A stretch of DNA of 47,064 nt from an uncultured Bacteroidales bacterium (lineage in GTDB: Bacteria; Bacteroidota; Bacteroidia; Bacteroidales; UBA932): assembly GCA_900321715.1 (NCBI GenBank), contig ONXC01000018.1, positions 1-47,064 on the forward strand, read 5' to 3'. Numbering within the stretch: the first letter of the stretch is position 1; each line of letters begins with the position of its first letter. Shown one piece after another: positions 1 to 9,164 of the stretch. Made by a program: the position numbers and the translations under genes. The notes below the pieces were generated by a model, which saw only the letters and a list, made by a program, of their open reading frames with translations, made no database searches and was not told where the DNA came from.

Positions 1-109
1 TACAATATTGTCAATGATCTTGATGGTTCAAGTGAACCAAGTTTGTTTTAAATGTTAAACTTTATAATAATCGTCCACAACTTTTAGTGGACACTCATGT
101 GCTGAAATA
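1..109. other. Upstream intergenic segment with small hairpins
   Basis: No gene is visible here. Two short inverted repeats are present: GGTTC/GAACC around 25-38 and GTCCAC/GTGGAC at 73-92 with an 8-nt loop. The second lies just before the GT2 start and could be the end of an upstream terminator or a leader hairpin, but it lacks a following T-run. The A/T-rich stretch around 50-70 could hold the GT2 promoter; no clear TAnnTTTG box is seen. Confidence 0.3.
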
Positions 110-931
110 ATGGACAAGAAACTAGTCATAATCCCCACATACAACGAAAAGGAGAATATTGCCGATATAATCCAGGCGGTGTTTTCCCTCCCTGGAGACT
201 TTCATGTACTTGTAATTGACGACGGCTCCCCTGACGGAACCGCCAATATAGTGAAGGGCCTGATGCCGGAGGGTGACACTCCGGAATCCCTGGCCACCCT
301 CGGCCGGGTAAGAGGGAGGGGCCCGCTGCCGGAGGCAGTGGGAGGGGTCGGCGAAGCCGACGATTCCGGAGTGTCACCCTCCGACATCAGGCTGCACCTT
401 ATTGAGCGAAGCGGAAAGTTGGGGCTGGGAACGGCGTACCTGCTGGGGTTCAAATGGGCCCTGGAGCATGGTTATGACTATGTCTTTGAGATGGACGCAG
501 ACTTCTCGCATGACCCTAAGGACCTTCTGAGGCTGTATGAGGCTTGTTCCGAGGGCGGTGCAGACCTTGCCGTGGGCTCACGCTACTGCAACGGCGTAAG
601 CGTTGTGGACTGGCCCATGAGCCGTATTGTGATGAGCTATTTCGCATCAACATATGTCCGTGGGGTCCTCCAGATGAAAGTTTATGACACCACGGCCGGA
701 TTTGTGTGCTATAGCCGTAAGGTGCTTGAAACCATGAATCTGGACGGAGTGAGGATGAAAGGCTACGGTTTCCAGATTGAGATGAAATACACCGCCTGGA
801 AGCTTGGTTTCAAGCTCAAGGAAGTCCCCATCATCTTCACAAACCGCCAGAAAGGCACCTCCAAAATGAGCGGTGGTATCTTCGGTGAGGCCTTCTGGGG
901 CGTCATTGCCCTCCGCTTCAGGCGTTTTTAA
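110..931 (+). CDS. Polyprenol monophosphomannose synthase-like GT2 with in-frame palindromic insert
   Basis: GT-A fold glycosyltransferase of the DPM1 type, expected to move mannose (or another sugar) from a nucleotide donor to a polyprenyl phosphate at the inner membrane. Visible motifs are the N-terminal PTYNEKENI, VIDDGSPDG with D37/D38, and the EMDADFSHD stretch with the DAD metal-binding residues at 129-131. The GKLGLGTAY block after the insert is typical of the family. There is no C-terminal membrane domain, so it is the short soluble form. Residues about 52-93 are not family sequence: they are encoded by the palindromic element at 262-388, and without it the protein would be about 231-235 aa, close to family length. 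The gene converges on tex, with the two ends overlapping by 14 bp. The donor and acceptor are inferred from the family. Confidence 0.85.
   Translation: MDKKLVIIPTYNEKENIADIIQAVFSLPGDFHVLVIDDGSPDGTANIVKGLMPEGDTPESLATLGRVRGRGPLPEAVGGVGEADDSGVSPSDIRLHLIERSGKLGLGTAYLLGFKWALEHGYDYVFEMDADFSHDPKDLLRLYEACSEGGADLAVGSRYCNGVSVVDWPMSRIVMSYFASTYVRGVLQMKVYDTTAGFVCYSRKVLETMNLDGVRMKGYGFQIEMKYTAWKLGFKLKEVPIIFTNRQKGTSKMSGGIFGEAFWGVIALRFRRF
262..388 (+). repeat. In-frame palindromic element, copy A (inside GT2)
   Basis: Seen directly: 26-nt outer arms at 262-287 and 363-388 are reverse complements with one mismatch. Between them is a core (290-347) matching copy B at 54 of 58 positions in the same orientation relative to the host gene. 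Inside the core a 9-bp hairpin at 322-342 (loop GGA) includes a pair that is C:G here and G:C in copy B, a compensatory change. A further hairpin GTCGGC/GCCGAC lies at 348-362. The element is read through in the GT2 frame without a stop, adding about 42 residues. Exact borders need an uninserted orthologue. Confidence 0.85.
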
Positions 932-3062
932 GGAGTTTCAGCCCTATTCTCTTACGCTCCAGGTCCACGGAAAGGACCTGGACTTTTATTTGCTGATGGA
1001 GTTTAAGGACCTTGGAGGGAATGGCCATTCCGCGCTCTCCCATATTGGAGGCGTGTATGAGGCCGTTTTCGTGAAGGCCGATATCCACAAATGCGCCAAA
1101 GGCCGTGAGATTGGTCACAATGCCGGGAAGTTCCATCCCAACCTTCAGGTCCTCTATGTCACGGATGTCATCGGCAAAAGAGAACTCCTGGGCGCTTTCA
1201 CGTGGGTCACGGCCGGGCTTTTTCAGTTCCTGGATAATGTCACTCACCGTAGGAAGGCCGAAGTCTTTCTCCACAAAGTCTGCGGCATTCAGTTTTGAGC
1301 AAAGTTCCTCATTGCCCACAAGCTCCCGTGTGCTTACCCCAAGGCTCTTTGCCATCTTGTCTACAATGTGATAAGATTCAGGATGCACGGCGGAATTGTC
1401 AAGAGGGTTTTCTGCTCCGTGAATGCGGAGGAATCCTGCGCACTGCTGATATGCCTTGGCGCCAAGACGTGGCACTTTGAGGAGTTCCTCGCGGGAACGG
1501 AAATCCCCGTGGGAGGCCCTGTAGTCCACAATTGCCTTGGAAAGGGCGGGGCCAATTCCGCTCACGTATCTGAGCAGCCAGGGGCTAGCCGTGTTAAGGT
1601 TCACGCCAACGGAGTTCACGCAGCTTTCAACGGTGGCGTCCAGCTTTTCATGAAGGAGATTCTGGTCTACGTCGTGCTGGTACTGACCAACTCCAAGGGA
1701 CTTGGGGTCTATCTTCACAAGTTCAGATAGCGGATCCATAAGCCTGCGGCCGATGGAAACAGCCCCGCGCACCGTTACATCGTACTGCGGAAATTCCTCA
1801 CGGCCAACATCCGATGCGGAATACACGGAGGCGCCGTCCTCACTCACGGAGAACACGCGGATGCTCTCCGGGAGGCCCACCTTGCGGATGAAATCCTCTG
1901 TTTCACGGCCTGCAGTGCCGTTTCCAATGGCTATGACCTCAATCTCATATTTATCCACCAGATCTGCCACCTTGGTGATTGCCTCAATCTTTTTGGGAAC
2001 AGGAGGATGGGGATAGATAACGTCGTGGCAGAGGAGGTTTCCCTGGGCATCCAGGCATACTACCTTGCAGCCGGTACGGAAGCCGGGGTCAATTGCCATG
2101 ACGCGCTTCTGGCCCACAGGCGGTGCCAGAAGAAGTTGCCTCAGATTCTCCCCAAACACCTGCACGGACTCTTTATCGGCCTTTTCCTTTGCCTCATTGA
2201 GGATTTCCGTGGTTATTGAAGGGTCCAGGAGGCGCTTGAAGCCGTCGTCTACGGCCATACGGATTTGCTCACCGCTTTCGCGGGAGGGGTAGCCGTGCTC
2301 CTGGCAGAAATCGTAATAAATCTTGTTGCCGCATTTCTCGGAATCTGCGTCTATGCTCACACGAAGGAAGCCTTCTCCCTCTGCCCTAAGCATAGCCAGA
2401 AGGTTGTGGGAGGGGATCTTTGCAATGGGCTGGGAGAACTTGAAATAGCTACGGTATTTTGCGGCCTCAGGGTCTTCCTGGCCTTTTTTTGTTACGGTCG
2501 ATTCCACCCTTCTGGTGCGGTAAATGCCGCGGAGGGTTTCCCTGAAGGATGCGGTTTCGCTGATTCGCTCCGCCATAATGTCACGGGCCCCGCCAAGGGC
2601 GGCTTCCGTGTCCTTGATATCTCCCTTCACGAACTTTCGGGCATCGGCCTCAGGGTTACGGGACTTTCCGCTCCAGAGGAGATTGGCCAGCGGTTCCAGA
2701 CCGGCGGCAATTGCCATTGTGGCGCGGGTTTTTCTCTTGGGACGGAACGGGAGGTAGATGTCGTCAAGGCGGGGAGAACTCACGCACTCCTCAATTTCCC
2801 TCTCAAGTTCGGGGGTAAGTTTCCCGGCCTCCTTTATGGTCTTCAGGATCAGTTCCTTGCGCTTTTCCATTTCGGAAAATACATCGGCCCAGTGCTTTAC
2901 CTCAGCAACTTCAATGTCAGTGAGGCCGCCGGTGCGCTCCTTGCGGTAGCGGCTGATAAAAGGGACGGTGCATCCGTCTTCAAACAGTTCAGCGCAGTTG
3001 AGGACCTGCCAGGGCTGAACGCCCAGAAGCCCCGCGATATAATTGACGTAAATCTCTTTCAT
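918..3062 (-). CDS. tex: Tex-family RNA-binding transcription accessory protein
   Basis: Tex/YhgF protein of 714 aa, a conserved nucleic-acid-binding factor linked to transcription. The order of domains fits: N-terminal helical region starting MKEIYVNYIAGLLGV, a YqgF/RNase H-like domain with VMAIDPGFRTG near residue 320, a helix-hairpin-helix region (NTASPWLLRYVSGIGPAL) near 490-520, and a C-terminal S1 domain (GIVTNLTAFGAFVDIG). The reading frame stays open 32 codons further upstream, but those residues do not look like Tex. A TATCTTCG promoter box lies 8 nt before the ATG at 3062, so this start is preferred. It is convergent with the GT2 gene, and the ClC gene ends upstream of it on the same strand. 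Confidence 0.95.
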   Translation of the reverse strand: MKEIYVNYIAGLLGVQPWQVLNCAELFEDGCTVPFISRYRKERTGGLTDIEVAEVKHWADVFSEMEKRKELILKTIKEAGKLTPELEREIEECVSSPRLDDIYLPFRPKRKTRATMAIAAGLEPLANLLWSGKSRNPEADARKFVKGDIKDTEAALGGARDIMAERISETASFRETLRGIYRTRRVESTVTKKGQEDPEAAKYRSYFKFSQPIAKIPSHNLLAMLRAEGEGFLRVSIDADSEKCGNKIYYDFCQEHGYPSRESGEQIRMAVDDGFKRLLDPSITTEILNEAKEKADKESVQVFGENLRQLLLAPPVGQKRVMAIDPGFRTGCKVVCLDAQGNLLCHDVIYPHPPVPKKIEAITKVADLVDKYEIEVIAIGNGTAGRETEDFIRKVGLPESIRVFSVSEDGASVYSASDVGREEFPQYDVTVRGAVSIGRRLMDPLSELVKIDPKSLGVGQYQHDVDQNLLHEKLDATVESCVNSVGVNLNTASPWLLRYVSGIGPALSKAIVDYRASHGDFRSREELLKVPRLGAKAYQQCAGFLRIHGAENPLDNSAVHPESYHIVDKMAKSLGVSTRELVGNEELCSKLNAADFVEKDFGLPTVSDIIQELKKPGRDPRESAQEFSFADDIRDIEDLKVGMELPGIVTNLTAFGAFVDIGLHENGLIHASNMGERGMAIPSKVLKLHQQIKVQVLSVDLERKRIGLKLLKNA

Positions 3063-3070
3063 AGGTGATA

Positions 3071-3078
3071 CGAAGATA
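3071..3078 (-). promoter_or_regulatory. Putative -7 box of tex
   Basis: Minus-strand TATCTTCG, one base off the Bacteroidota consensus TAnnTTTG, ending 8 nt before the chosen tex ATG. It implies a very short 5' leader and rules against the longer upstream start. Confidence 0.5.
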
Positions 3079-3157
3079 GTGATTTTCCTCTGCTCGGGCA
3101 ATGAAAAACACGTTTTTGGCGTTTTCTGCGCGGTTGGTTGCCCGAACCGCCGGGACA

Positions 3158-4927
3158 TTAGTCCTGCGAAAAGTCCTTAAGGGATTCCCTGTAGGCGTTG
3201 AAAATCTTGGACTTTGACAGGAAACCAAGGTATTTCCTCTCATCATCCACAACGGGAAGGTTCCAGGCGCCGGTTTTTTCAAACTTACGCATTACGGCTT
3301 CCATGGAATCCTGCGGATAAACGTATTCAGGGGCGGTTTTGAGGTAATTGAAGACGTGGCGCTGTTCATATAGCTCCGGGCGGAACATGTCCTTACGGAT
3401 ATCTCCAAGCGTAACGTAGCCCTGGAAACGCCCGCGGGCATCCACAACCGGGAACAGAGAGCGCTCAGAGGAAGAAACGGCCTCAACCAGTTTCCCAAGG
3501 GTGTAGTCCATCCTTACGGGAAGGAAGTCCTTCTCCAGAAGGTCGTCCATCCTCAGGAGCGTAAGGACGGCTTTATCTGCCTCATGGGTAAGAAGTTCCC
3601 CAGAAGCGGCAATACGCTTTGTGTAGATGGAATATTTCTCAAAGATACGCGTTGTGCCATACGCCACTGCCGATGTAATTATAAGCGGCACCAACAGCTC
3701 ATACCCACCGGAAATCTCTGCGATGAGGAAGATGGCGGTTAGCGGCGCCTGCATTACGCCCGCCATGAGGCCGGCCATACCCACAAGCACAAAATTGGCA
3801 ACGGGAACGGCACCGGGGGCAATCAGGTTAAGGACATCGGCCACAACAAACCCCACAAGCGCGCCCACAAAAAGCGTAGGGCCGAATGTTCCTCCCACTC
3901 CCCCGCCGGCGTTTGTGAAAGTCATAGAGAACACCTTGAGGAACGCTACCAGAAGGAAAAACAGCGGCACTCCCCAGCCAAATTTCATAAGAACGCCCAT
4001 TGGCGTACCATTTCCAATTGCAGGATCCAGCCCGTTGAGAAGCGGCCCCAGGAAGTTGTAGCCTTCCCCGTGAAGCGGCGGGAAAAGGAAGATGAGAAGC
4101 CCCAGCGCCACGGAACTCACTAGCCACTTGAGGTAAGGGTTCTTAAAGCGCGACAGGCGGTCTTCCATCCCAAGGGTTGTATGTATGAAATACAGAGAGA
4201 AAAGGCCGCAGAGCATACCCAGAAGAAGGTAGAACGGCACATTTCCCATGCGGAAGTCCACAATTGTTGCAGCAAACGGGCTCACCCTTCCAAGGCAGAG
4301 ATAACTGACCAGCGTGGCCGATATAGAGCTCAGAAGAAGCGGCAGTATCCCAGACATGGAGAGGTTGAAAAGGAGGATCTCCAGAGTGAACAGCACGCCG
4401 GCAAGCGGGGCGTTGAAGATGCCCGCAACGGCTCCGGCGGCGCCACATCCAAGGAGAAGGGTCATGCCGCGGTAGGACATTCCGGTGTATCGGCCCAGAT
4501 TTGAGCCTATTGCAGCGCCGGTATATACAATTGGGGCCTCGGCACCCACAGAGCCACCAAACCCTATGGTAAGGGCACTGGTCACAAGCGAAGACCAGAT
4601 ATTATGGCGCTTGATCTTGGATTCATTCTTTGAGACGGCCTGCAGCACCTTTGTAACTCCATGGCCGATATTATCCCTTACAAGATACTTCACTATTAGA
4701 AGGCTCAGGAGCATTCCAACGCCAGGAAGCACCAGGTAAGGCAGGCGGCTGCCGGGCATTATCCCGGAGGAAAGCCAGCCCTGGATTGCGTGGATGGAGA
4801 CCTTTAGCGCCACTGCGGCCAAACCGCAAAGAAGGCCTGTCAGAATAGACAAGCCAAGGAGCGCCGTACTCTCAGGCACCTTACGCAAAAGGGCCCTCAG
4901 AGGGGCCCATATAAACTTATTCATCAT
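3158..4927 (-). CDS. ClC-type chloride channel/transporter with CBS domains
   Basis: Integral membrane ClC protein of about 589 aa that moves chloride or another anion, possibly coupled to protons. The selectivity-filter region GSVGAEAPIVYTG contains the gating glutamate (family form GxxGxE.P), followed by GIFNAPLAGVLFTLE and, in the second half, GGGVGGTFGPTLFVG. About ten hydrophobic segments fill the first 430 residues. The C-terminal 130 residues carry two CBS motifs that usually sense adenine nucleotides. The frame is open further upstream, but MMNKFIWAPLRALL at 4927/4924 gives the normal family N-terminus. That start overlaps the end of the preceding small gene, so the two are probably translationally coupled. 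Substrate specificity is not decided by the sequence. Confidence 0.93.
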   Translation of the reverse strand: MMNKFIWAPLRALLRKVPESTALLGLSILTGLLCGLAAVALKVSIHAIQGWLSSGIMPGSRLPYLVLPGVGMLLSLLIVKYLVRDNIGHGVTKVLQAVSKNESKIKRHNIWSSLVTSALTIGFGGSVGAEAPIVYTGAAIGSNLGRYTGMSYRGMTLLLGCGAAGAVAGIFNAPLAGVLFTLEILLFNLSMSGILPLLLSSISATLVSYLCLGRVSPFAATIVDFRMGNVPFYLLLGMLCGLFSLYFIHTTLGMEDRLSRFKNPYLKWLVSSVALGLLIFLFPPLHGEGYNFLGPLLNGLDPAIGNGTPMGVLMKFGWGVPLFFLLVAFLKVFSMTFTNAGGGVGGTFGPTLFVGALVGFVVADVLNLIAPGAVPVANFVLVGMAGLMAGVMQAPLTAIFLIAEISGGYELLVPLIITSAVAYGTTRIFEKYSIYTKRIAASGELLTHEADKAVLTLLRMDDLLEKDFLPVRMDYTLGKLVEAVSSSERSLFPVVDARGRFQGYVTLGDIRKDMFRPELYEQRHVFNYLKTAPEYVYPQDSMEAVMRKFEKTGAWNLPVVDDERKYLGFLSKSKIFNAYRESLKDFSQD

Positions 4928-5288
4928 CTGCACCGGAAGAATACTGGGCGATGTTGTCATCTGGAAGGGTTTCTCCGGAATCTTCAGGAGAATCCGGGGC
5001 GCCGCCGGCCACTGCCTCAGTCTCTGCATCTTCCTCTCCTTCAAGCCAGCGGGCTACATCCTCAAGGTCATCCGTCTTGACGTTGATCTTTACAAGGTAT
5101 ATAGCATCTGCGGTTTCTACCGTGACGGCATAGAAACTGGTACCGTCCGGCTTGGGGTATTTTACAAGGTCGTTCAGATAATCGCTGAAGCCCTTGGGAT
5201 ATTTCTCTTGAAAAGCGGCAGCCAGATCCGGATGCAATGCATTCATCTTCTCAAAGCTTACTACGTGTCTCTTCTTAATGTCTGCCAT
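4917..5288 (-). CDS. Small acidic protein of unknown function between ygiQ and ClC
   Basis: 123-residue protein that I do not recognise as a named family. It begins MADIKKRHVVSFEKM. The first 80 residues look folded, with alternating hydrophobic positions and SFYAVTVETADAIYLVKINV, a likely beta-hairpin. The last 40 are rich in Asp, Glu, Gly and Pro and probably disordered. No signal peptide or membrane segment is present, so it is likely cytoplasmic. It starts 2 nt after the ygiQ stop and its end overlaps the ClC start by 11 nt, so it belongs to one operon with both. The context gives no functional assignment. Confidence 0.8.
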   Translation of the reverse strand: MADIKKRHVVSFEKMNALHPDLAAAFQEKYPKGFSDYLNDLVKYPKPDGTSFYAVTVETADAIYLVKINVKTDDLEDVARWLEGEEDAETEAVAGGAPDSPEDSGETLPDDNIAQYSSGADDE

Positions 5289-5290
5289 AA

Positions 5291-7180
5291 TTACTTCTTG
5301 ATAGGTTTAGTCTTTCCGCCTGCAATATTAGGCTTTTGTTTTGAACCTTGCAAGGGCTTTCCGCTTTTTTTTGAAGAATTTTTAAAGAAATATGATTTTT
5401 GCCTCATTTTGCGCTCCGGGTCACGCTCCACAAATACCGGTTTCATGTCCCTGGGGTCTATTCCGCTGTAGAACATTACGGACGATGTGGTCATGGGTGT
5501 AGGGGTGAAATCCTGGACCTGGTCCATCCAGATACCCTTCAGGGCGGGATGATTGGCAAGGCACTCCATATCCTTGAGCGTGCACCCCGGGTGTGATGAT
5601 ATAAAATAAGGTACAAGGCCCACATGAGTCCCGGCGTCTCGGTTTATCTTGTCAAATTCCTTCCTCAGGCGCTCGAAGAGCCTGAATGTGGGCTTTGCCA
5701 TCTTCTGGAGCACGTGGTCCTCAGTGTGCTCCGGGGCCACTTTTAATCGGCCAGAAGTATGGTCAAGGACAAGTGTCTTGAGATAAGGCTTGGAACTCTG
5801 GTCCACAAAGCCGTCTTCCGTAAGGAATAGGTCATAGCGGATACCGCTGCCGATATAGCTGTGCCTGATGCCCTTGGTGGAGTCTATCTTCTTATAGAGC
5901 TCCATAAGGCGGGTGTGGTCACAGTCAAGGTTGGGACACCGAGCCGGGAAAAGGCAGCTGCGGCGCTTGCATTTGTCGCAGATCTCAAGGTTCTTGCCGT
6001 GCATCCCGTACATATTGGCCGTAGGGGCCCCTACGTCTGATATATTACCTGCAAAATCCGGAAGATTGTTCAGTTCCTTTACTTCCTTTAGGATTGATTT
6101 CTCAGAGCGGCTCTGGATGAACTTCCCCTGATGCGCGGCAATTGTGCAGAAGTTACAGCCCCCGAAACAGCCCCTGTGGGTGTTTACGGAGAATTTTATC
6201 ATATCGTATGCCGGAATCCGTTTGCCCTTGTATCTGGGATGCGGCAGTTTTGTGAACGGCAGGTCCCAGAAACTGTCCATCTCCTCCTGCGATGCCGGCG
6301 GATACGGCGGATTGATCTGGACGTACCCGTCCCCTACCGGCTCCAGGATGGTATCCGGATGCATCATATTGGCGTGCGTCTCTATCCAGTGGAAATTCTC
6401 TGCAAAGGCTCTCTTGTCTTTCTGGCACTCTTCAAAACTATGTAGCACCAGAGTACCGGCAGGCACACCCTCTTCAACCGCCTTCGCTTCGCTCAGGCCC
6501 CTCCCACTGGCTTCGCCAGCGGGCCCCTCCCTCTTATCCGGCCGAGGGTGGCCAGAGGTTGCCGAGGGTGTGCCTGCCGGTACTTTGCCTTTGACATAGA
6601 AAGCGATCTGCGGAATCTGCTGCATCTTATGGCGGGGCCAGCCCTTTTCTATGCCCTTTGTGAGTTCCAGCATGGGGCGTTCTCCCATACCGTAGCAGAG
6701 GTAATCGGCCCCGGAAGTAACAAGGACAGTGAGACGCCTCAGGGATGCTTCTATGCCGCCGATAACTACAGGGATATCCGGATACAGTTCCTTGAGGATT
6801 TTGGTATACACCGTAACGGCGTAATCCGGGCGGGCGCCGGCCTTGCCGTCAGGGGTATAGGCGTCGTCGTGACGGAGGCGCTTTGAGGCAGTGTAATGGT
6901 TTACCATTGAGTCCATAGCGCCGGAATTAAGGCCGAAATACAGCCTGGGGCGGCCCAGCTTACGAAAATCACGGAGATCGTCACGCCAATTGGGCTGAGG
7001 CACCACTGCAACGCGGTAGCCCCACTTCTGGAGCCATCTGGCAATCACGGCCGTCCCAAAGGAGGGGTGGTCTATGAATGCGTCTCCGGAGAAAAGGATG
7101 ATATCAATGTAATCCCATCCAAGGGCCTCCACCTCCTTTACGGACGTGGGAAACATGTATGATTGTGATACCTCTGCCAT
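5291..7180 (-). CDS. ygiQ: YgiQ family radical SAM protein with in-frame palindromic insert
   Basis: Radical SAM enzyme of the YgiQ (UPF0313) family, 629 aa, reaction unknown. The 4Fe-4S motif CxxxCxxC is at Cys338, Cys342 and Cys345 (THRGCFGGCNFCTIA). The N-terminal cobalamin-binding-like domain (FSGDAFIDHPSFGTAVIARW) and the PEHTEDHVLQKMAKP stretch near the C-terminal part are typical. A basic tail ends the protein. Residues about 200-243 (starting VPAGTPSATSG and ending VPAGT) are not family sequence; they come from the palindromic element at 6452-6584, placed before the conserved LHSFEEC segment. The ATG at 7180 is chosen because the -7 box at 7189-7196 lies directly upstream, which would exclude the earlier ATG at 7201. 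Confidence 0.95.
   Translation of the reverse strand: MAEVSQSYMFPTSVKEVEALGWDYIDIILFSGDAFIDHPSFGTAVIARWLQKWGYRVAVVPQPNWRDDLRDFRKLGRPRLYFGLNSGAMDSMVNHYTASKRLRHDDAYTPDGKAGARPDYAVTVYTKILKELYPDIPVVIGGIEASLRRLTVLVTSGADYLCYGMGERPMLELTKGIEKGWPRHKMQQIPQIAFYVKGKVPAGTPSATSGHPRPDKREGPAGEASGRGLSEAKAVEEGVPAGTLVLHSFEECQKDKRAFAENFHWIETHANMMHPDTILEPVGDGYVQINPPYPPASQEEMDSFWDLPFTKLPHPRYKGKRIPAYDMIKFSVNTHRGCFGGCNFCTIAAHQGKFIQSRSEKSILKEVKELNNLPDFAGNISDVGAPTANMYGMHGKNLEICDKCKRRSCLFPARCPNLDCDHTRLMELYKKIDSTKGIRHSYIGSGIRYDLFLTEDGFVDQSSKPYLKTLVLDHTSGRLKVAPEHTEDHVLQKMAKPTFRLFERLRKEFDKINRDAGTHVGLVPYFISSHPGCTLKDMECLANHPALKGIWMDQVQDFTPTPMTTSSVMFYSGIDPRDMKPVFVERDPERKMRQKSYFFKNSSKKSGKPLQGSKQKPNIAGGKTKPIKK
6452..6584 (-). 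repeat. In-frame palindromic element, copy B (inside ygiQ)
   Basis: Seen directly: 28-nt outer arms at 6452-6479 and 6557-6584 are reverse complements with two mismatches and begin and end AGTAC/GTACT. The core at 6498-6555 matches the copy in the GT2 gene at 54 of 58 bases, in the same orientation relative to the coding strand. Its central hairpin has stem CCCGCTGGC/GCCAGTGGG and loop GAA. The arm sequences differ from those of copy A. Relative to copy A the core is translated in another frame here, yet no stop occurs. The 10-mer GCCGAGGGTG occurs twice (6541 and 6561). Confidence 0.85.
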
Positions 7181-7188
7181 AAGTGATG

Positions 7189-7217
7189 CAAATATAATCA
7201 AGAAATCACTATCTTTG
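7189..7217. promoter_or_regulatory. Divergent -7 boxes for ygiQ and the 7222 lipoprotein
   Basis: Minus-strand TATATTTG (7189-7196) lies 8 nt before the ygiQ ATG, and plus-strand TATCTTTG (7210-7217) lies 4 nt before the ATG at 7222. Both match TAnnTTTG exactly. Such spacing predicts leaderless or nearly leaderless transcripts in both directions. Confidence 0.7.
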
Positions 7218-7221
7218 CAAT

Positions 7222-7716
7222 ATGAAAAGAATATTTTACCTTCTTGCAGCCGTTATCGGCCTTAGTCTCACGTCATCCTGCGGGAAAGCTTTCTTTGACC
7301 AGGTGCTCCTTGAAGGCAACTGGGGTCTGATACGCAGTGAGATGACAACCTCTGTCAACGGAACGGTAACAGAGTCTCTGATTACGGATTGTGACCCTCT
7401 CAACCCCAAATCCCCCATGGACACTCAGCTGGCAATCAGAACCGCTTCCGGTAACTACTATGAATTCTCAACTTACAACTGGGACATGGTGCGCGGCGCA
7501 TGGTCTCTACTGATGAAAGATAATCTCATCGTAAGGGACAACGTATTATATATTATAGAAGGCGGCCGTGAGATGGAGTTCGGCCATTTCACCGCAACTG
7601 CAAGCACCCTAACAATTGAGACCATAGACATCTTCGATGAAGTAGTGGGCGGTGTGGTCACTCAACACTCAACCGTATCACGCTCAACTTACAGAAGGCT
7701 GTCAGACCTTCTCTAA
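7222..7716 (+). CDS. Small lipocalin-like lipoprotein
   Basis: 164-residue predicted lipoprotein. The signal peptide MKRIFYLLAAVIGLSLTSSC ends in a lipobox with Cys20. The mature part starts with a helix and then a WGLIRSEM strand, followed by alternating polar and hydrophobic strands (YYEFSTYNW, MEFGHFTAT, TLTIETIDIF), resembling the lipocalin-like small lipoproteins common in Bacteroidota. No catalytic motif is visible. It is a single gene, transcribed divergently from ygiQ and followed by a strong hairpin terminator. Function is unknown; surface or periplasmic anchoring is inferred from the lipobox only. Confidence 0.8.
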   Translation: MKRIFYLLAAVIGLSLTSSCGKAFFDQVLLEGNWGLIRSEMTTSVNGTVTESLITDCDPLNPKSPMDTQLAIRTASGNYYEFSTYNWDMVRGAWSLLMKDNLIVRDNVLYIIEGGREMEFGHFTATASTLTIETIDIFDEVVGGVVTQHSTVSRSTYRRLSDLL

Positions 7717-7738
7717 GGCCCATTTTTTATCCCATATA

Positions 7739-7770
7739 AAAATGCCTCTGGAATCTTCCAGGGGCATTTT
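7739..7770. terminator. Strong hairpin terminator after the 7222 lipoprotein
   Basis: Inverted repeat with 15 paired bases (AAAATGCCTCTGGAA against TTCCAGGGGCATTTT, one G-T pair) and a 2-nt loop. A-run and T-run flanks allow it to work in both directions. Confidence 0.8.
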
Positions 7771-7970
7771 CAGTTTATCACCTATTAAGAACGGACCATT
7801 AAAATCCTGATAATAAAGCTGTTGTCATAGGACAATCCATTCACGTCTTTTCTTGGCCATCATGTATATCGGCCATACATTTGAGCCGCAATATCTGCAT
7901 GATGGGACTTTGATCGGCCACCGTGACAGTTGCGTTTTTTGCTGGGGCCGGGGGTTTTCTCCGGTCCCTT
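7771..7970. other. Gap without a supported gene
   Basis: About 200 bp between the terminator and the end of rlmI. A minus-strand reading frame just beyond the rlmI stop contains a CxxC pair (CRYCGS) and basic residues, but it has no usable start. I see no RNA gene. It may be the decayed end of a former gene or chance. Confidence 0.3.
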
Positions 7971-9164
7971 CTATTCTACATAGAGGAGAAGGCCTTTCAG
8001 ATACTCCCCTTCCGGATGATAGATGTTCACGGAGTGGTCTCCGGGCTGGTTCAGACGGTCAAGGATTCTTACACTGCGGCCGGTTTCAGCGGCAGCGGAG
8101 AAAACGGCAAGGGCAAATGCCTCCTTGTCCACAACCTGCGAGCAGCTGAATGTAAAGACGAAGCCGCCGGGAGCCACCTTTGCGATGGCGGCAGCATTGA
8201 GCCTCTGGTATGCCCTCAGGGCGTTTTTGAGCGCTCCCCTATGCTTTGCAAATGCCGGGGGATCCACTATCATGAGGTCATATGCGCCGTCAGGGACGTT
8301 CTTCACAAAGTCTATAGCGTCGGCACAATATGAAGTGTGCTGATCCTTGGTAAAGCCGTTCAGTTCAACGTTACGGTCCACCATTGCCATGGCGCGTGCG
8401 CTGCTGTCCACTGAATCTACGTGCTTAGCACCGCCTGCAAGGGCATAGATGGAGAAGCCGCCGGTGTAGCAGAAAAGGTTGAGGACATTGCGGCCGCGGG
8501 CAAGTTTCCCAACCCTGGCGCGGTTCTCTCTCTGATCCAGGAAGAAACCTGTCTTCTGGCCCTCGTTCCAGTTTACAAGGAACTTGTTGCCATTTTCAAG
8601 GACTACGGATTCATCGGCATCAAATCCGGGAGCCTTCCAGAGATAGCCGTCAACTAGCTCCAGGCCGGCCTTGAAGGGCGCTGTGCCGGAACTTTTGTCA
8701 TAGACGGCCTTGAGGGTACCGCCGTAAACCTCACGGAGGGCATCGGCAATGGCGTTCTTGGCGCGGAACATGCCCACGGAATGGGCCTGGAGCACGCATA
8801 CGCCGTCATAATAGTCTACTATGAGCCCGGGAAGGCCGTCCCCTTCCCCGTGCACCAGCCTGTAGCAGTTGGTTTCTTCCGACCCCGCAAGACCCATTGC
8901 CTCACGGAGTTTCAGGGCCCTTGTGAGCATCAGGGTCCAGAAATCCGGCTTGGTGGGGTCCTCGTCAAAACTGAGGATCCTTACTGCTATGGAGCCTATC
9001 TGGTAATGGCCGCAGGCCAGGAGCTTTCCATCGGCCCCTACTACGCTCACAAGGTCTCCCTCTGCGGGATGGCCCACAATCTGGGCAATGGCCCCTGAGA
9101 ACACCCAGGGATGGTAACGCAGGATGGATTCCTCCCTGCGGGGTTTCAGAATGATTCTATCCAT
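7971..9164 (-). CDS. rlmI: Class I SAM-dependent rRNA methyltransferase, RlmI-like
   Basis: 397-residue methyltransferase of the RlmI/RlmK group, which methylates a cytosine of 23S rRNA at C5 in E. coli. The N-terminal PUA domain contains RYHPWVFSGAI. The Rossmann domain shows the SAM-binding motif NLFCYTGGFSIYALAGGA and the DPP motif MIVDPPAFAKH. Near the C-terminus SCSQ (FTFSCSQVV) provides the expected catalytic cysteine region. The ATG at 9164 (MDRIILKPRREES) is chosen over an upstream in-frame ATG because it gives the usual N-terminus; it overlaps the end of the exonuclease gene by 8 nt. The target base is inferred from homology. Confidence 0.93.
   Translation of the reverse strand: MDRIILKPRREESILRYHPWVFSGAIAQIVGHPAEGDLVSVVGADGKLLACGHYQIGSIAVRILSFDEDPTKPDFWTLMLTRALKLREAMGLAGSEETNCYRLVHGEGDGLPGLIVDYYDGVCVLQAHSVGMFRAKNAIADALREVYGGTLKAVYDKSSGTAPFKAGLELVDGYLWKAPGFDADESVVLENGNKFLVNWNEGQKTGFFLDQRENRARVGKLARGRNVLNLFCYTGGFSIYALAGGAKHVDSVDSSARAMAMVDRNVELNGFTKDQHTSYCADAIDFVKNVPDGAYDLMIVDPPAFAKHRGALKNALRAYQRLNAAAIAKVAPGGFVFTFSCSQVVDKEAFALAVFSAAAETGRSVRILDRLNQPGDHSVNIYHPEGEYLKGLLLYVE

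Follow-up and report, generated by a model that had tools for sequence, protein, structure and literature searches.

What is the segment inside the ygiQ gene of this uncultured Bacteroidales bacterium, which recurs, read in another frame, in a glycosyltransferase gene of the same contig, and how does it persist within protein-coding sequence? The window, that is the whole stretch of 47,064 nt that was analysed, had been described from its letters alone as holding two copies of one element. BLAST reproduced the 54/58 core identity given in that preliminary description (ygiQ 6498-6555 on the minus strand against GT2 290-347 on the plus strand, 93% over 58 nt). The two cores have the same sense relative to their coding strands and are, as had been claimed, read in different frames, phase 2 in ygiQ (SGHPRPDKREGPAG) and phase 1 in GT2 (LATLGRVRGRGPL). 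A wider inverted pair, 276-347 and 6498-6569, shows 88% identity over 72 nt. The segments are indeed copies of one element, but the ygiQ copy is one of many (~28 in the genome) rather than the second of two. Similarly, the segment placed at 6452-6584 is real but longer, and we extended it to 6449-6587 because a 31-nt inverted repeat with 90% complementary arms closes the element (Table 1). The predicted folding energies are −95.1 kcal/mol for the ygiQ copy (z = −8.3) and −107.2 kcal/mol for the GT2 copy (z = −9.9), with 0/200 shuffles as low. These z-scores, together with 28 covariance-model places in the genome, argue that the pair is not due to chance.

Table 1. Positions in the window of the two element copies, their parts and their host genes.
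Feature	Position	Strand	Evidence and remarks
ygiQ, radical SAM protein, 636 aa including the insert (host gene)	5291..7201	-	ORF; Radical_SAM_N, Radical_SAM, DUF3362
Whole element in ygiQ	6449..6587	-	Inverted repeat; fold z -8.3; covariance-model match 6470-6566
Outer stem P1, 5' arm (core sense), ygiQ copy	6557..6587	-	Inverted repeat, fold
Outer stem P1, 3' arm, ygiQ copy	6449..6479	-	Inverted repeat, fold
Core between the arms, 77 nt, ygiQ copy	6480..6556	-	BLAST, copy comparison
H-type pseudoknot, ygiQ copy	6529..6556	-	Stem 6550-6556 with 6537-6543; loop 6544-6548 (CCCTC) with 6529-6533 (GAGGG); covariation
Hairpin P3, ygiQ copy	6503..6523	-	Fold, covariation; length and sequence differ among copies
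Hairpin P4, ygiQ copy	6480..6497	-	Fold, covariation; absent from outgroup copies L246, L251 and L253
GT2 glycosyltransferase (host gene of the other window copy)	110..931	+	ORF; Glycos_transf_2
Element copy in GT2	258..392	+	Arms 258-288 and 362-392, core 289-361; orientation opposite in species G280

BLAST searches of the 2.04-Mb source genome, which is 81% complete, placed the core at 31 positions at E ≤ 10 and at 22 at E ≤ 0.02. The covariance model, built from 36 copies of which some come from this same genome, gave its 28 places at E ≤ 0.001, and 25 in an order-wide run. In a typical copy, about 105-185 nt long in all (typically ~130 nt), outer stem P1 encloses a conserved 36-nt segment, hairpin P3, whose length varies, and in most cases hairpin P4 as well. 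The arms are well paired in 53 of the 55 elements of one set; four copies of the source genome, L011, L012, L020 and L021, are without well-paired arms. In L012, L020, L021, L022 and L024 P3 contains an additional CAAGCTTGCTTG-type sub-hairpin; this long form has a core of 124-127 nt in L012, L022 and L024, and L020 (in miaB) and L021 are partly decayed copies.

The conserved segment folds as an H-type pseudoknot, with a 7-bp stem and a loop, CCCTC, that pairs with a downstream GAGGG. This second helix also occurs as CCCGC/GCGGG, CCCGT/ACGGG, CCCAT/ATGGG and CCCCC/GGGGG, variants changed on both sides, whose counts are depressed by the four of 30 distinct 36-mers judged to be out of register. 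In an alignment of 36 sequences every cell of the pseudoknot helix (100%) is paired; two of its five pairs have changed on both sides and three are invariant. Over the whole structure 92.2% of cells are paired against a shuffled mean of 80.9, and cells with two-sided changes number 102 against 32, neither value being reached in 500 shuffles. Kinship among the sequences can beat shuffles, and for this reason the slid controls matter; they gave 30-54% paired cells. Further pair types in the same alignment were not above the shuffles (28 versus 25.6; 83/500).

Complementarity in P1 extends over ~22 bp in most copies, is partial as far as 28 bp and falls from there towards background; the sequence of the stem is hypervariable among copies save for G-rich and AAACC-like stretches. 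Counts of G.T against A.C in the outer stem were 47:11 in the first set and 47:33 (p = 0.15) in the second, drawn from GTDB; since the wobble excess is clear in the first set alone, strand-specific folding of this stem is suggested rather than demonstrated. We had first taken the outer arms for inverted copies of the target, a view given up because inner arms seem by eye to move with the core (L007 of the source genome resembles L017 of G280). Comparison of the copies shows one predicted folded unit, with a long outer stem, a pseudoknot and one or two hairpins, present many times and in either orientation. Searches of window positions 1-8000 and six loci with the Rfam 15 covariance models gave no relevant match, only weak unrelated ones. 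One was to group II intron domain 5 at 7936-7971 on the plus strand (27.4 bits against a cut-off of 65.5, E 0.019), probably by chance.

We then considered where the copies lie. Among 25 oriented copies of the source genome, 17 are spanned by an ORF that continues for 40 aa or more beyond both ends, and L003 by one with 36 aa; the seven without a spanning ORF may be intergenic. ORFs with a Pfam family host 16 of the 25. From the Pfam matches, which for some genes lie on one side of the insert only, and partly from general knowledge of gene names, we take the hosts to be ygiQ, GT2, rsmA, a THUMP-like gene, an M20 peptidase gene, a trmB-like gene, murB, folP, a YggS-like gene (Ala_racemase_N), metG, truA, dapF, miaB, an aminotransferase gene, tilS and ribF. 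Several of the host genes are usually vital. The ORF at L014 matched no Pfam family, and nadD was rejected as the host at L009, where the Pfam match is riboflavin kinase/FAD synthetase (ribF).

The reading frame could be assigned for 15 of these copies, with ribF left out. The conserved segment is read in sense in phases 1 (four copies) and 2 (two), and in antisense in phases 0 (four), 1 (three) and 2 (two). Of 30 distinct segments, 27 have TAA or TGA in the sixth frame, and neither the 15 copies nor the 20 framed ygiQ and GT2 copies make use of that frame. With five frames in use there is no conserved peptide; the proposal that conservation is at the nucleic-acid level is thus borne out, by the five frames and both orientations of the 15 copies and by the covariation of stems and pseudoknot. 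A GTDB set of 77 elements from the 80 loci listed, less 10 with weak arms, left 67 with paired arms; in 28 of them an ORF, judged by its length, runs through the element and continues for at least 40 aa to either side (10 sense and 18 antisense). On this comparative evidence loss of frame is rare among intragenic copies, and the conserved segment is as a rule free of stops in five of its six frames. One copy of the source genome, L002 (C16:81509-81602), divides a SpoU-like methylase gene into two parts, out of frame and with a net gain of 79 nt relative to G280. At apparently the same place of the same gene another locus (L328:4722-5684) has an in-frame copy.

The ygiQ loop allowed this constraint to be followed across species. 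In the YgiQ protein Radical_SAM_N spans the insert and the Radical_SAM domain starts at residue 339, ~90 residues past it, in agreement with the variable-loop position first proposed. We collected 60 loci, the best 30 for a query with the insert and the best 30 for one without it; four lacked the N-terminal half and three were repeats, leaving 53 distinct loci. A short loop of 21-33 nt was found in 20 of these and an insert of 66-282 nt in 33, of which 32 are in frame and stop-free, the exception being G141 (L104), where the insert is out of frame. Insertion here is therefore tolerated, as had been expected. The motif GGGAGGG occurs in 26 of the 33 inserts, G141 among them, and the contents of the loop vary: the core can run forward or be reversed, can take the form of a GCC-CCCCGGC variant, or can give way to a different core. 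A normal family peptide is not what these loci, all of one genus, have in common; what recurs at the loop is a DNA element, read in several frames and in both orientations. In three species (L115, L118 and L129) a second, unrelated core (GCGCTCATCAGAGCGCCCGGCGG...AGGCGAGGGTGGCC) lies between similar complementary arms at the same ygiQ site, and in L112 and L127 a further in-frame insertion of ~28-30 residues directly precedes the element. The in-frame state of 32 of the 33 inserts fits purifying selection on a translated insert, and makes it most likely that the element is translated rather than removed from the RNA.

Removal would mean that the element is spliced out of the RNA, or its hairpin bypassed by the ribosome, so that a normal protein results. 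The extreme outer stem, the conserved pseudoknot, the residence of copies in usually vital genes and the out-of-frame position of L002 would all suit such a process. However, it has no need of ygiQ inserts that are in frame and stop-free over lengths of 66 to 282 nt; the stop-prone frame is avoided by the framed copies, and in nine of the 15 framed copies of the source genome, which are antisense to the gene, the conserved strand is not in the mRNA. Given the frame constraint and the antisense copies, we regard removal as highly improbable. If the element were a regulatory RNA of its host gene, such as a riboswitch, attenuator or terminator, this would account for a conserved structured core and for copies that may be intergenic, yet the hosts are unrelated, the positions mid-gene, both orientations occur with flips at one site, and Rfam offers no relevant match, so that this reading is scarcely credible. 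Translation of a tolerated insert is the reading we carry forward.

Evidence for movement came from G280, which is 92% identical to the source genome in the 3' part of ygiQ; the comparison covers part of the G280 genome, with strong matches for 10 of 27 loci. Two sites, L022 (aminotransferase) and L002, are empty in G280 at flank identities of about 88-95%, and no target-site duplication was seen by eye at either; the comparisons yielded no exact element end. At L007 (M20 peptidase) the outer arm is the same in G280 and the inner arm and core are of another type, and at L017 (dapF) the inner arm and the orientation differ. At L010 G280 has the same arms around an inverted core, with 127/128 aligned positions identical when reversed (6 gap columns) as against 70/126 directly (10 gap columns), between flanks of 286/300 (95%) and 268/300 (89%) identity. 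The GT2 copy is likewise inverted, at 105/117 as against 77/117 directly with 42 gap columns each. The G280 GT2 locus (L157) also has a 42-nt insertion within the element itself, which keeps the frame. Among 30 GT2 loci, 16 were unreadable by the pattern used and the insert is missing from all 13 other readable ones; the matches of other genomes start past it, at residues 91-94.

Comparison between species thus shows sites that are empty or filled, that hold different cores and that are inverted in place. These palindromes might instead be vertically inherited, changing by drift and inversion with no present transposition, and the copies at L005, L006 and L009, common to both genomes in the same orientation, as well as the presence of the ygiQ element in many species, are consistent with this. 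The empty sites between closely similar flanks, the GT2 insert not seen in the 13 other loci, the different core types at one site and a copy number of 0 to 48 within the genus all speak against it, and we consider it very unlikely.

With the covariance model the element was found in 52 of 61 genomes sampled from the genus, at 1 to 48 copies each. BLAST was positive in 19 of 41 genomes, all within the genus, and in 0 of 16 others, and the order-wide model run in 3 of 149, namely the source genome, G524 (another genus of the same family; five copies) and G426 (another family; two). A pattern scan of GTDB gave at least 80 loci; among the matches listed all were titled Bacteroidales, Bacteroidia or Bacteroidaceae, with many rumen or gut samples and one Candidatus Cryptobacteroides caccocaballi. 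Transport on plasmids or phages was rejected, as one pattern in viral contigs and one query each in phages and plasmids gave no match.

As to the enzyme that might mobilise the element, four Y1 ORFs (303-372 aa) are present in the source genome, and three of them match NCBIfam REP_Tyr_transpos below its cut-off; two of the proteins read by eye YIANNP and YIGNNP, like the subclass 2.4 motif YIxNNP. Y1 genes occur in 45 of the 52 element-bearing genomes of the genus as against one of nine element-free ones (p = 1.7e-5 before correction for the tree), and among genomes at least 80% complete in 27 of 27 with five or more copies as against 6 of 17 with fewer. Corrected on a weakly resolved tree of 59 genomes, ~3 independent pairs agree and on average 0 disagree, a number too small to reach significance (median p of 0.25). 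The outgroups G524 and G426 have elements without Y1, and G245 has Y1 without an element match. By eye the 450-nt flanks of the four Y1 genes contain no element, the nearest lying 2.1 kb from one of the ORFs and 2.9 kb from another. One Y1 gene (L227, C13 around 87900-88100) has a different REP-like repeat at its flanks, in the form of many TGGACCAGGTCCA-like palindromes. A reverse transcriptase was rejected, with no RVT_1 match in the source genome and no association with the element (p = 0.25, 61 genomes); the control DDE_Tnp_1 showed no link either, occurring in 21 of the 61 genomes, four of the nine element-free and 17 of the 52 element-bearing. A RAYT-like Y1 transposase acting on single-stranded DNA is our best, though tentative, candidate.

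The element works much as do the Rickettsia palindromic elements (RPEs), described in PMC10969869 as ~150-nt palindromes of several families, many of them in frame in unrelated genes. The element here is also palindromic, multi-copy and of their size class (about 100-150 nt), and apart from L002 in the source genome it too lies in frame in unrelated protein genes. RPEs, however, encode a conserved peptide, which is lacking here, the 15 framed copies using five frames, and for this reason we do not file the element as a member. The covarying pseudoknot core, the in-place inversion and the core exchange may also set it apart from RPEs, and its Bacteroidales host does.

REP repeats, given as 20-40 bp with a GTAG or CGTC tag in PMC3733652, share with the element their palindromic form and high copy number, and Y1 enzymes (RAYT, TnpA-REP) are believed to mobilise them in trans. 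In contrast, the element measures ~130 nt, no GTAG or CGTC foot stood out by eye in the aligned copies, and RAYT genes are flanked by REPs whereas the Y1 genes of the source genome have no element in their flanks. For RAYT subclass 2.4, PMC6006769 describes REPs in frame within the transposase gene and mentions insertions in unrelated genes, which makes the present element less novel. MITEs are likewise short, non-autonomous and multi-copy with inverted arms, but here the arms are hypervariable and complementary with no shared TIR sequence, no parent IS was found and no target duplication was seen by eye at the two empty sites. A literature search, judged by titles and abstract openings, found no paper describing the element.

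Collectively, the comparisons make it probable, in our judgement, that we are dealing with a non-autonomous mobile element from Bacteroidales, small (about 105-185 nt) and belonging to the intragenic palindromes. In the model we propose, the element would be translated as a surface loop of its host protein, and its stop-free frames would let it survive even in vital genes and so persist. What is conserved would be the fold of one strand, read by a mobilising enzyme, whereas the outer stem and hairpins would need pairing only, so that their sequence could drift with compensation. Inversion in place may arise from recombination, or from template switching during replication, between the two arms. 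A bolder version is that an invertible, pseudoknot-cored transposable palindrome serves as a shuffler of protein loops, a flip or core swap giving a vital enzyme an unrelated loop of ~40 residues with frame and function kept, perhaps within populations, and driven by a Bacteroidales RAYT that reads the folded single strand; this we offer as speculation, and rather doubtful.

With this finding, gene-dwelling selfish DNA of the Rickettsia type would reach into a lineage common in the rumen and gut, for which much more material is available for comparison. The pseudoknot within a palindromic repeat provides a concrete target in the search for the mobilising enzyme. Across species the ygiQ site alone is seen empty, filled, flipped, swapped or decaying, so that gain, inversion, maintenance of the stem and tolerance of mobile DNA in vital enzymes can be traced directly. 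For these bacteria the element would be a natural case of mobile DNA living inside proteins, where translation in any of five frames apparently yields a harmless loop.
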